64,000 nucleotides of DNA from an uncultured Bacteroidota bacterium (GTDB taxonomy: Bacteria; Bacteroidota; Bacteroidia; Flavobacteriales; Flavobacteriaceae). Shown in pieces: positions 50,129-53,528 of the stretch (position 1 is the stretch's first letter; each line of letters opens with the position of its first letter). Both the position numbers and the translations under genes were made by a program. The stretch lies in assembly GCA_902523665.1 (NCBI GenBank), contig CABZAD010000004.1, positions 1 through 64,000 of the forward strand, written 5' to 3'. The notes under the pieces were generated by a model. That model was not told where the DNA came from. It made no database searches and saw only the letters and a list, made by a program, of their open reading frames with translations.

Positions 50129-51073
50129 TTAAAAAGTTTTATTTTTAATTGAATACTTATCCTTATTTAAATTAAACTTTAAAATTAATTCAGCTAAAAA
50201 CCCTGCAATAAAAAATTGCGCGCCCAAAATCATTGTAGTTAAAGCAATATAAAATTCAGGTCTACTTGTAATCAGCCTAGAATTTGTTTCAATAAATAAC
50301 TTGTTGTAACCTAGGTATACTGAGAATATAATACCAATAAAAATCATTATTGTTCCGATTAAACCAAAAAAATGCATTGGCCTTCTTCCGAATTTATTGG
50401 TAAACCATAGAGTGGTTATATCTAAAAATCCTCTTATAAATCTTTCATTTCCAAATTTACTTTTACCATATTTTCTTGGTTTATGATTTACTACATGCTC
50501 TCCAATTCTATAAAAACCTTCATTTTTTGCAAGAATTGGAATAAATCTATGCATATCAGCATGTAAGTTAATTGACTTTATTACTTCTTTTCTGTAAACC
50601 TTAATTCCACAATTAAAGTCATGGAGTTTTATTCCAGAAAAAGCACGCGCTACCAAATTAAAAAATAAAGATGGAATCTTTTTAAAAAAATATGAATCAT
50701 ATCTTTTCTTTTTCCAACCAGATATTAAATCAAGATTATTTTTGATCAGCTTATCAATCATTATTGGAATTTCTTCAGGTGAATCTTGAAGATCAGCATC
50801 AAGTGTAGCAACATAATTACCTTTGGATTCATGAAATCCAACTCTTAATGCTTGTGATTTTCCATAATTTCTAATGAATGAAATACCCTTAACGTTATTG
50901 TTCTCTTTTGAAATATTCTCAATAATTTTCCAAGATTGATCATTACTTCCATCATCTATGTATATTATTTCATAAGAAAAACCACTATTAATAAAAGATT
51001 TATAAATCCACCCATTGAGTTCAATTAAGGACTCGGATTCATTATAAAGCGGTATTACAATTGAGACGTCCAT
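50129..51073 (-). CDS. GT2 family glycosyltransferase (dolichol-phosphate-mannose-synthase-like)
   Basis: 314 residues. The GT-A fold begins MDVSIVIPLYNESESLIELN, with the donor-binding DDGSNDQSW and the metal site ATLDADLQDSPEEIP. HDFNCGIKVYRKEV and FIPILAKNEGFYRIGE are conserved in polyprenyl-phosphate glycosyltransferases. Two C-terminal membrane helices (FFGLIGTIMIFIGIIFSVYL and YIALTTMILGAQFFIAGFLA) anchor it. It probably transfers a sugar to undecaprenyl phosphate on the cytoplasmic face. DUF4199 lies 7 bases upstream, the exporter directly downstream. Confidence 0.92.
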   Translation of the reverse strand: MDVSIVIPLYNESESLIELNGWIYKSFINSGFSYEIIYIDDGSNDQSWKIIENISKENNNVKGISFIRNYGKSQALRVGFHESKGNYVATLDADLQDSPEEIPIMIDKLIKNNLDLISGWKKKRYDSYFFKKIPSLFFNLVARAFSGIKLHDFNCGIKVYRKEVIKSINLHADMHRFIPILAKNEGFYRIGEHVVNHKPRKYGKSKFGNERFIRGFLDITTLWFTNKFGRRPMHFFGLIGTIMIFIGIIFSVYLGYNKLFIETNSRLITSRPEFYIALTTMILGAQFFIAGFLAELILKFNLNKDKYSIKNKTF

Positions 51074-51080
51074 AGGCTAT

Positions 51081-51605
51081 TTAAACTGGCCTATTTTTTT
51101 TTAGTGCTAATCCAGTTAACAATGATATAAGCCCACCAAAGAATAATGAGACTGCCATTCCAATTGATGACGAAATAAGTGGATTTGCAAAGAATTCAAA
51201 TGCTCCCTCCATAGCTTCAACTATCTCATCTCCAATTTCAGGATTTTGTTGTAGTGCTTGGTCTATTGCATAATCCATGGCTTTAGTCATAGTATCTGGA
51301 TCTAATACATATCCTTGAAATATTCCATATGCAATACCGATAGCAGATCCAAGAGCTGTAATTCCGATACCAATTTTAATTCCTTCACCTAAACTTATAA
51401 AATTATCATTCATCTTTTTAAAAGCTAATTGGCCAAAAACAATTGACCCTGCCATTATTAATAATCCAGTCCATTGTTGAATTGAGGAGTTTTGATAGTG
51501 CATGTCCATTAGAAATAACATAATTGTAAATGCAATAGTTAGTCCACCCATTATTAAACCATAGTTTAGCACAGTTGACCTAATAGTTCCTTTAGATTCT
51601 AACAT
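51081..51605 (-). CDS. DUF4199 membrane protein
   Basis: 174 residues, four hydrophobic segments: VLNYGLIMGGLTIAFTIMLF, WTGLLIMAGSIVFGQLAF, IGIGITALGSAIGIAYGIFQ and ISSSIGMAVSLFFGGLISLL. A soluble acidic loop (YVLDPDTMTKAMDYAIDQAL and beyond) lies between the last two. The pattern matches DUF4199, a Bacteroidota family often found next to GT2 genes, as here. Function unknown; by position, perhaps a partner of the glycosyltransferase or its lipid substrate. Confidence 0.88.
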   Translation of the reverse strand: MLESKGTIRSTVLNYGLIMGGLTIAFTIMLFLMDMHYQNSSIQQWTGLLIMAGSIVFGQLAFKKMNDNFISLGEGIKIGIGITALGSAIGIAYGIFQGYVLDPDTMTKAMDYAIDQALQQNPEIGDEIVEAMEGAFEFFANPLISSSIGMAVSLFFGGLISLLTGLALKKNRPV

Positions 51606-51672
51606 ATTATTTGTATTAAATTATTTAGGTAAAATTAAGCAATTATAATGATAGGTTATATGAAAAAAATTT

Positions 51673-51680
51673 TAAATTTG
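51673..51680 (+). promoter_or_regulatory. -7 box TAAATTTG for the L31 gene
   Basis: Exact TAnnTTTG match inside TTTTAAATTTGCAC with an A-run before it, the same core as the rpsL promoter. Predicted start about 51684, a leader of roughly 13 bases. Confidence 0.6.
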
Positions 51681-51696
51681 CACTCACTTTGAAGTT

Positions 51697-52185
51697 ATGA
51701 AAAGTAATACACATCCTGATAACTATAGACTAGTAGCGTTTAAAGATATGTCAAATAATGATGTTTTTATAACAAAGTCTACAGTTGAAACTAAGGAGAC
51801 CACAAAAATTGATGGTGTAGAATATCCGCTTTTCAAACTTGAAATATCAAGAACATCACATCCTTATTATACCGGTAAATCTAAGTTAGTAGATACTGCT
51901 GGTAGAGTTGATAAGTTTAGAAGCAAATATGCTAATTTCAATCAGGCACCTACTACTGAGGAGGTTTCTGATACTGCGGAGGCTTCTGCTACTGAGGAGG
52001 CACCTACTTCTGAGGAGGTACCTACTGCTGAGGAAGCACCTACTGCTGAAGAGGCTTCTGCTGCTGAGGAGGCACCTGCTACTGAGGAGGCTTCTGCTAC
52101 TGAGGAGGCTTCTGCTACTGAGGAGGCTTCTGCTACTGAGGAGGATAATGACTCACAAGAATCAGAAGATACAGACCCTTCATAG
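51697..52185 (+). CDS. rpmE2: 50S ribosomal protein L31 type B with acidic repeat tail
   Basis: 162 residues, about twice the usual length. Residues 1-82 are a clear type B (zinc-free) L31: [40 protein letters not shown] and [17 protein letters not shown]. Residues 84-162 are a tail made mainly of 11 hexads of the form ATEEAS/APTAEE, followed by an Asp/Glu/Ser end. The tail has 28 acidic residues and no Lys, Arg or His. Three consecutive 18-base units are identical, so the repeat expanded recently or is kept uniform. It has its own promoter, and mtaB starts 14 bases after it. The core function is secure; the tail's role is unknown. Confidence 0.92.
51949..52146 (+). repeat. 18-bp tandem repeat, 11 units, in the L31 tail
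   Basis: Units approximate GCTACTGAGGAGGCTTCT, in frame, coding for hexapeptides with a central Glu-Glu. The three units nearest the 3' end are identical; the 5' units have point changes (one has Ala-Glu instead of Glu-Glu). Base composition is much richer in G and C than the surroundings. Likely length-variable between strains. Confidence 0.9.
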
Positions 52186-52199
52186 ATTATTTTAAAGTT

Positions 52200-53528
52200 T
52201 TGTCAAGTATTTTAGTATCAACAGAAGTTAAAAGAAATATATCTACTGTTGCAATTCATACGCTTGGATGTAAATTAAACTTTTCTGAGTCCTCATATAT
52301 TTCAAAATCTCTTCAAGAAAATGATTACAAGATTGTAGAATTTAATGAATTTGCAGATGCATATGTAATAAATACTTGCTCTGTTACTGAAAATGCTGAT
52401 AAAAAATTTAAGTATTTTGTCAAGCAAGCTCAAAAAAATAATCCGAATGCTTTTATTGCAGCAATCGGATGCTATGCGCAGTTAAAACCAAAAGAATTGT
52501 TATCGGTAGATGGTGTTGATCTAGTTCTAGGTGCAGCTGATAAATTTAATCTTTTAGAATATCTTAAAAATTTAGATAGTGACCATTCAAAAAAGGTTCA
52601 TTCATGTAATATAAATGAGGTAAACTTTTTTAAGGAAAGTTATTCTTTAAATCATCGTACAAGAGCATTTTTGAAAGTTCAAGATGGATGTGACTATAAG
52701 TGTAGTTTTTGTACTATTCCTCTTGCACGTGGTAAGTCAAGAAGCAATTCAATTTCAAATGTGATTGAAAATGTTTATAAAATTGCAAGTCAAAATATTA
52801 AAGAAATAGTTTTGACTGGTATAAACTTAGGAGACTTTGGTAAAAATGAAAACAAAGAATTTAATTCTAATTTCATTGATCTAATAAAGGAATTAGACAG
52901 TCTTAACTTGGATGTGAGATTTAGGATATCATCAATCGAGCCAAATCTTCTTAGTGATGAAATAATAACCTTTATAAGCACTAGCAAAAAGTTTGTCCGT
53001 CATTTTCATATTCCATTACAAAGTGGTAGTGATTCTATTTTAAGATTGATGCGAAGAAGATATGACACAAAATTGTATAAAAGCAAAATTGAAAAAATAA
53101 ACAAATTGATGCCTGATGCATGTATTGGTGTTGATATTATTGTGGGTTTTCCTGGAGAAAATAATGATCTTTTCCTTGAAAGTCTTAATTTTTTGGATAA
53201 TCTAAATGTTTCCTATTTTCATGTGTTTACTTATTCAGAGAGAGACAACACTCATGCTATATCCTTGCCTAATGTTGTAGATTTTAATGTTAGGACAAAA
53301 AGAAGTAAACTTTTAAGGCTTTTATCTAGTAAAAAGAAAGCATTATTCTATAAAAAAAACCAAGGGAGTATTCAAGATGTTTTGTTTGAATCAGAAGAAA
53401 AAAATGGATATATAGAAGGTTTTTCATCTAACTATATTAGATTCAGAAGACCATGGGATCCCAGTATAATTGGAACAATAGTAAAGTCTATTTTTGTAAA
53501 TATTGACTCAGATGGGTACGCTATATAG
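52200..53528 (+). CDS. mtaB: tRNA t6A37 methylthiotransferase MtaB
   Basis: 442 residues from TTG 52200; no in-frame ATG exists between the upstream stop (52149) and the conserved start region, so a non-ATG start is required. MtaB converts t6A37 to ms2t6A37 in tRNAs. The N-terminal domain cysteines appear in IHTLGCKLNFSESS, VINTCSVTENAD and AIGCYAQLKP. The radical-SAM cluster is QDGCDYKCSFCTIPLARGKS. HFHIPLQSGSDSILRLMRRR and GVDIIVGFPGE are family blocks. Follows L31 by 14 bases. Confidence 0.93.
   Translation: MSSILVSTEVKRNISTVAIHTLGCKLNFSESSYISKSLQENDYKIVEFNEFADAYVINTCSVTENADKKFKYFVKQAQKNNPNAFIAAIGCYAQLKPKELLSVDGVDLVLGAADKFNLLEYLKNLDSDHSKKVHSCNINEVNFFKESYSLNHRTRAFLKVQDGCDYKCSFCTIPLARGKSRSNSISNVIENVYKIASQNIKEIVLTGINLGDFGKNENKEFNSNFIDLIKELDSLNLDVRFRISSIEPNLLSDEIITFISTSKKFVRHFHIPLQSGSDSILRLMRRRYDTKLYKSKIEKINKLMPDACIGVDIIVGFPGENNDLFLESLNFLDNLNVSYFHVFTYSERDNTHAISLPNVVDFNVRTKRSKLLRLLSSKKKALFYKKNQGSIQDVLFESEEKNGYIEGFSSNYIRFRRPWDPSIIGTIVKSIFVNIDSDGYAI

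Follow-up and report, generated by a model that had tools for sequence, protein, structure and literature searches.

The window, by which we mean the whole 64 kb stretch of DNA that was analysed, comes from the assembly of a marine flavobacterium (1.13 Mb in 52 contigs, 81% complete, 30.5% GC). On its forward strand, positions 51697–52185 contain an open reading frame of 162 amino acids that encodes a type B bL31, the only L31 found in the host genome. The core of the protein (residues 1–82, 51697–51942) has a net charge of +4, and its residues 1–79 match both Pfam Ribosomal_L31 (PF01197; E value 1.2e-22, 80.3 bits against a cut-off of 27) and the NCBIfam type B L31 model (NF002462.1; 111.9 bits against a curated cut-off of 86, a whole-domain match). 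The PDB chain closest to the core is the 84-residue bL31 of F. johnsoniae (7jil_a), with which residues 1–80 align without a gap. Upstream, on the reverse strand, lie genes for a DUF4199 protein (51081–51605) and a GT2 glycosyltransferase (50129–51073), the latter serving as the syntenic marker for the tree described below. This gene order is conserved, as both genes adjoin L31 upstream on the opposite strand in all 23 fetched loci of the host genus, and a search of 19 genus genomes found L31 in 18 of them, as a single copy each time. The open reading frame list and a domain match place a radical SAM/UPF0004 protein, presumably MtaB-like, downstream at 52200–53528 on the forward strand.

The remainder of the bL31 frame forms a C-terminal tail in which residues 83–162 (80 amino acids) include 28 Asp/Glu and no Lys or Arg. 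The initial annotation was therefore correct in reporting an acidic tail devoid of basic residues, but its description as purely acidic holds only in that sense, as acidic residues make up just 28 of the 80. Tandem Repeats Finder and unit-by-unit codon reading identify eleven in-frame 18-bp units of the form xxxxEE at 51946–52143, a number that derives from a metagenome assembly alone and whose exact value is uncertain. The eleven hexads had been recognized in the initial annotation as sharing Glu-Glu; the dyad is present in ten of them, the exception being unit 2 (VSDTAE). The limits given there also required adjustment, since residue 84 begins at 51946 rather than 51949 and the last 13 residues (52144–52182, followed by the stop codon that ends at 52185) form a non-repeat acidic cap, a similar version of which is kept in the relatives L003 and L010. 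The three final units (52090–52143), noted previously as identical at the DNA level, do all read GCT TCT GCT ACT GAG GAG, and unit 3 matches them as well.

Tandem Repeats Finder reports the array at 51953–52144 with a period of 18, 10.7 copies and a score of 237, whereas the best of the 45 other rows in the window scores 66, which places the array far beyond chance. The tail has a GC content of 0.53, compared with 0.30 for the core and 0.31 for the window, and GAG accounts for 19 of its 23 Glu codons, compared with 312 of 1103 in the long open reading frames of the window, the tail counted in. In another frame of the forward strand, 51908–52195 encompasses a 95-residue open frame with Leu/Arg-rich repeats, which is probably a consequence of the repeat. 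The window encodes 29 further ribosomal proteins confirmed by Pfam, or 30 with L31. A scan for acidic C-termini in its frames of at least 60 residues flagged L31 alone among the ribosomal proteins, which makes the extension a selective feature; L34 and L36, which are short frames, were read by eye and contain no acidic repeat, and L17 has a short acidic end.

Acidic repeat tails on L31 and other ribosomal proteins

The host probably belongs to the genus of MED-G11 (NS5_A), as genomes of the same genus have tails identical to those of named records such as Cryomorphaceae bacterium MED-G11 and FRAM18_bin151. According to PMC9122927, MED-G11 counts among the four GTDB genera of the NS5 marine group, one of its species is labelled NS5_A, and that clade has been named Candidatus Marisimplicoccus, with genomes of about 1.17 Mb, about 30% GC and cells of about 0.5 μm. 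L31 was found in 57 of the 60 genomes searched, comprising 24 of 25 from the genus (host included) and 33 of 35 others. Nineteen of the 24 genus genes are complete and every one of these is tailed, with tails of 28–98 residues and net charges of −9 to −30 appended to cores that are mostly at +4; the other five genes run into contig ends. Outside the genus, 31 of the 33 open frames are 116 residues or shorter (an upper bound on protein length), both of the longer ones belong to family f6, and many of the sampled Flavobacteriaceae L31 proteins end near KFKK.

In family f6, represented by five genomes, the tails of L204, L205, L207 and L208 (cut in L207 and L208) are acidic repeats, and L206 has a weaker one of the AVAPE type. 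A second marine clade contributes 11 complete L31 tails, from a sample that is biased towards tails because the scan used tail peptides among its patterns and retained the best 80 of 168 matches. Of 15 other long L31 frames fetched from among the matches listed in surveys of the order and phylum, a long tail is found in L209 only, and the other 14 owe their length to in-frame sequence upstream. L209 (G586), an L31 from the host's own family, carries a long mixed-charge Lys/Glu/Ala/Pro tail that constitutes a different kind of extension. The suggestion that such a tail is unusual on L31 thus stands for most of the sampled genes outside the genus, with their frames of at most 116 residues, but not for the genus itself, where every complete L31 is tailed, nor for the second marine clade and family f6.

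A quick tree of the GT2 glycosyltransferase and the L31 core was built from 98 loci, 16 of which were dropped for want of a nearby GT2 orthologue to leave 82 rows; the named copies L031–L048 of genus loci were left out. The tree contains two separate tailed clades. Because a tree that unites them is not rejected (5.34 lnL better, p-AU 0.603), we do not claim convergence for the two. The host gene pairs with L008 (4 units, support 83) rather than with L003 or L010. Family f6, which has a different L31 core, falls outside the tree, as GT2 is not nearby.

Acidic repeats also occur on three other ribosomal proteins of the genus. The bS16 gene, located by alignment, is present in 23 of the 25 genus genomes, and all 10 complete copies end in acidic repeats of the APADE/APAEE type. 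This tail is not confined to the genus but recurs in sampled genomes across the order: the 11 non-genus bS16 genes that were fetched have Glu-rich ends, and at least L144, L155, L160 and L172 among them show clear repeats. For uL10, found in 19 genus genomes, all 16 complete copies have acidic repeat-type tails, and a long acidic tail is present in one of 11 fetched from outside the genus (L274). Identified through 7jil chain 4 ('50S ribosomal protein L38', E value 2.3e-10) and PF14128, bL38 (DUF4295) was found in 21 genus genomes; all 16 complete copies are tailed (38–88 residues, net charge −3 to −21), and none of the 21 fetched non-genus genes is. The uL10 and bL38 tails contain Lys, unlike the host L31 tail. 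In the host genome itself the L31 tail is the only complete one: the contig that carries bS16 stops shortly after the start of the repeats, that of uL10 stops ahead of any tail, and no copy of bL38 was found.

These gene predictions show that, in this genus, the L31 tail belongs together with those of bS16, uL10 and bL38 to a set of acidic repeat extensions. Explanations tied to the L31 site alone become less likely as a result, and the L31-specific role considered in the initial annotation is not retained. Across species, the tail charges of the four proteins correlate positively but not significantly (Spearman 0.40–0.75, p 0.08–0.31, n 6–12). The set may be larger still, since genome searches with tails alone recall poorly and missed even the known host L31 tail.

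Some tails of the set have features of their own. In the same genomes, uL10 (L271, L258) and bL38 (L285, L290) share a very similar 30-bp unit of the AEEVKAEEPA type, a likeness that suggests copying between the two genes or a common seed. The tails of uL10 in G017 (L258/L233) and of bL38 in G007 (L329) seem frameshifted near the end, either in reality or through assembly error. A 258-residue protein of the former genome (L232, G017:C1:1052224) has mixed-charge KPVKEATVEE repeats near its end.

Contigs of the genus break off inside the tail or ahead of it in 13 of 23 bS16, 5 of 24 L31, 5 of 21 bL38 and 3 of 19 uL10 genes, a frequency at which the tails seem to break assemblies. The host genome was assembled from a metagenome, and tandem repeats can collapse or break assemblies, so the tails might be thought an assembly artefact. 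We regard this as extremely improbable, given that tails of one kind, in an unchanged gene order, recur in separate assemblies across the genus and that the tail of the two-contig genome G017 equals that of FRAM18_bin151.

Turnover of the arrays and constraint on their charge

L003 and L010 are the relatives most similar to the host in the core and downstream DNA (96% and 93%, respectively), and their arrays contain six and four units as compared with eleven in the host. Nine of the ten units in these two relatives encode the dyad as GAG-GAA, whereas eight of the ten host dyads are GAG-GAG. Codon usage is uniform within arrays: in 18 of the 19 complete genus arrays (the exception being L016, which lacks a Glu-Glu dyad), Glu-Glu codon pairs from the same array are identical at a frequency of 0.769, compared with 0.271 after shuffling, a value reached in none of 5000 shuffles. 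The 11 arrays of the second clade give 0.479 against 0.246 (0 of 5000). Some genus arrays have, in place of the six-residue period, a period of nine residues mixed with one of five. Homogeneity of codons within arrays, together with the differences in unit count, codons and period between them, indicates that the arrays have been rebuilt repeatedly. The recent expansion or homogenisation proposed in the initial annotation is thus supported, both by the codon identity within arrays, far above that of shuffles, and by the alignment of related L31 genes, in which the unit counts differ between species rather than being equal.

The host array contains nine copies of GGAGG (51943–52185), and, with the GAG bias described above, it could be read as a DNA- or RNA-level element in which GAGGAGG repeats act as a Shine-Dalgarno-like decoy in the mRNA. 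A conserved array of this kind was rejected, as 15 of the 19 genus tails have no GGAGG at all, with GAGGAA, GAAGAG or GAAGAA in its place. Bacteroidia ribosomes are, moreover, reported in PMC9976891 to sequester the anti-Shine-Dalgarno sequence, and we give the decoy next to no credence; the GGAGG array of the host species is a by-product. An Rfam scan of 51000–52600 at a permissive threshold returned two matches to eukaryotic families, both below the gathering score and taken as chance.

At the protein level, the picture is one of constraint. Across 80 six-residue units, the two dyad positions are Glu in 79 and in all 80 units, and the remaining four linker positions are mostly Ala, Pro, Thr, Val and Ser. 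The corresponding pN/pS values are 0.026 for the Glu positions and 2.34 for the linker (80 units from 13 of the 19 arrays, namely those with a six-residue period and at least three units in register). These values are descriptive and carry no p value, because unit pairs are non-independent and the units were anchored on Glu-Glu; recent duplication of units, which leaves little time for change, also bears on them. The high linker value may reflect preferred codons, the third positions there being mostly T. Read from the genes, the arrays preserve their Glu-Glu pattern in the encoded protein, whereas the number of units, their sequence and their codons turn over fast.

Constraint of this kind need not imply a positive function. 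Under a near-neutral repeat ratchet, the C-termini of a few ribosomal proteins would tolerate soluble extensions, slippage would generate the repeats, and selection would only purge basic or frameshifted versions. Unit number, linker and period (six, or nine mixed with five) do vary freely among species, some bL38 tails are almost neutral, the tails of uL10 L258 and bL38 L329 look frameshifted, and contigs often end in tails, as they would at unstable repeats. Two observations are difficult to reconcile with such a process. The Glu pairs are retained at the pN/pS noted above although GAG to AAG is a single transition and the genome is at 30% GC, and no complete genus gene lacks a tail in bL31 (19 of 19 tailed), uL10 (16 of 16) or bL38 (16 of 16). 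A ratchet without positive function is thus a serious possibility, but in our estimation an unlikely one.

Proposed role of the tails and comparison with known systems

On balance, we lean slightly towards the tail being a strongly negative, probably disordered C-terminal bristle, one of a selected set that acts by charge and length. Retention of charge on several proteins, with sequence and length left loose, points to a bulk electrostatic or solubility role. In such a role, the tails would be translated and kept on ribosomes, and would depend on how charged and how long they are, not on their exact sequence. They would project into solvent, where they may keep free basic ribosomal proteins off RNA before assembly, produce like-charge repulsion between ribosomes in very small cells, or both. 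The AlphaFold model is of low confidence over its whole length (mean pLDDT 49.6; blocks of ten residues at 46–61 in the core and 36–46 over most of the repeat) and leaves disorder of the tail weakly supported. The more than threefold variation in L31 tail length and the near-neutral tails of some bL38 proteins count against the bristle explanation, and fit weak constraint as well. The Lys residues in the uL10 and bL38 tails and the non-significant correlation of tail charges also count against it.

The bL31 tail would leave from the 30S head, the site of the bL31 C-terminus in characterized ribosomes. As described in PMC9966373, E. coli bL31 spans the subunits, with its C-terminal domain on the 30S head and its C-terminus directed to uS14 and helix 41, and subunit association depends in part on the final eight residues. 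According to PMC7530986, the C-terminal part of E. faecalis bL31 touches uS13, uS14, uS19 and helix 42, and work cited there found that cleavage of the final seven bL31 residues compromised 100S formation. From this position on the 30S head, it follows that an 80-residue acidic extension would emerge from the head.

The ends of the L31 tails are partly conserved. Read by eye, the 19 complete genus tails terminate in DPS (11), NPS (3), SDS (3) or otherwise (2), so that (D/N)PS is retained in 14 of 19 despite the variable repeats, a feature that a pure charge role does not predict. This end is one argument for a role in recruitment, in which the tails, like those of the eukaryotic P-stalk, would draw basic partners such as a translation, assembly or hibernation factor. 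The genus-associated tails include those of bL38 and of uL10, which we take to be the stalk base; bS16, in contrast, is presumably not at the factor site, which counts against recruitment. The (D/N)PS end lacks hydrophobic character and is absent from 5 of 19 tails, periods and linkers differ between the proteins, and no candidate partner was identified. In favour of recruitment, the Borrelia counterpart of bL38 contacts helix H95 with the sarcin-ricin loop, according to PMC10618245, and the effect on 100S particles of losing the last seven bL31 residues (PMC7530986) points the same way. We consider recruitment very doubtful.

A broader form of the bristle reading, which we offer as speculation and think rather improbable, is that the four tails jointly form an acidic corona, with bL31 positioned at the subunit bridge, uL10 at the base of the stalk, bL38 close to the sarcin-ricin loop and bS16 on the 30S body. 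If this were true, they might tune surface electrostatics or factor access through rapid change in repeat number, and would represent a bacterial counterpart of the acidic stalk tails in working, though not in descent.

Few proteins of a cell are as conserved or as basic as those of the ribosome. Even so, a genus of ocean bacteria with reduced genomes has equipped at least four of them with long acidic tails coded by minisatellites, with charge kept as the DNA churns, and it thereby presents a case in which selection on the bulk charge and length of ribosomal tails can be tested. Tails that seem to break assemblies also affect ribosomal protein gene calls and proteomic databases. In the literature on bacterial ribosomal protein tails, the F. 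johnsoniae ribosome, MED-G11, Marisimplicoccus and bL38, covered through the titles and abstract openings of the top-ranked papers, few of them from subscription journals, we found no description of acidic repeat tails on bL31, bS16, uL10 or bL38.

A close parallel to the L31 tail is provided by the acidic Ala/Pro/Glu extensions of Flavobacteriales bS16, which are likewise C-terminal, low-complexity repeats (of the APAEE/APADE kind) on a ribosomal protein. The L31 tail shares their C-terminal position, their repetitiveness, their composition of Ala/Pro with Glu/Asp and their paucity or absence of Lys and Arg. It differs in having a unit of six rather than five residues, in its codons, and in its occurrence in the genus, the second marine clade and family f6 rather than in genomes sampled across the order. 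Canonical type B bL31, as in F. johnsoniae (7jil chain a), corresponds to the core of the host protein and has no tail. The polyglutamylation of bS6 by RimK likewise adds a run of Glu to a ribosomal protein, and is a way for acidic tails to alter how ribosomes behave; that modification is post-translational, whereas the tails on L31 and the other proteins here are genetically encoded. In the P-stalk of eukaryotes and archaea, too, ribosomal proteins, among them P0, the homologue of uL10, bear flexible acidic tails at their C-termini. Those tails terminate in a conserved hydrophobic motif that recruits partners, whereas inspection by eye of the 19 complete L31 tails reveals no evident hydrophobic end of this kind.
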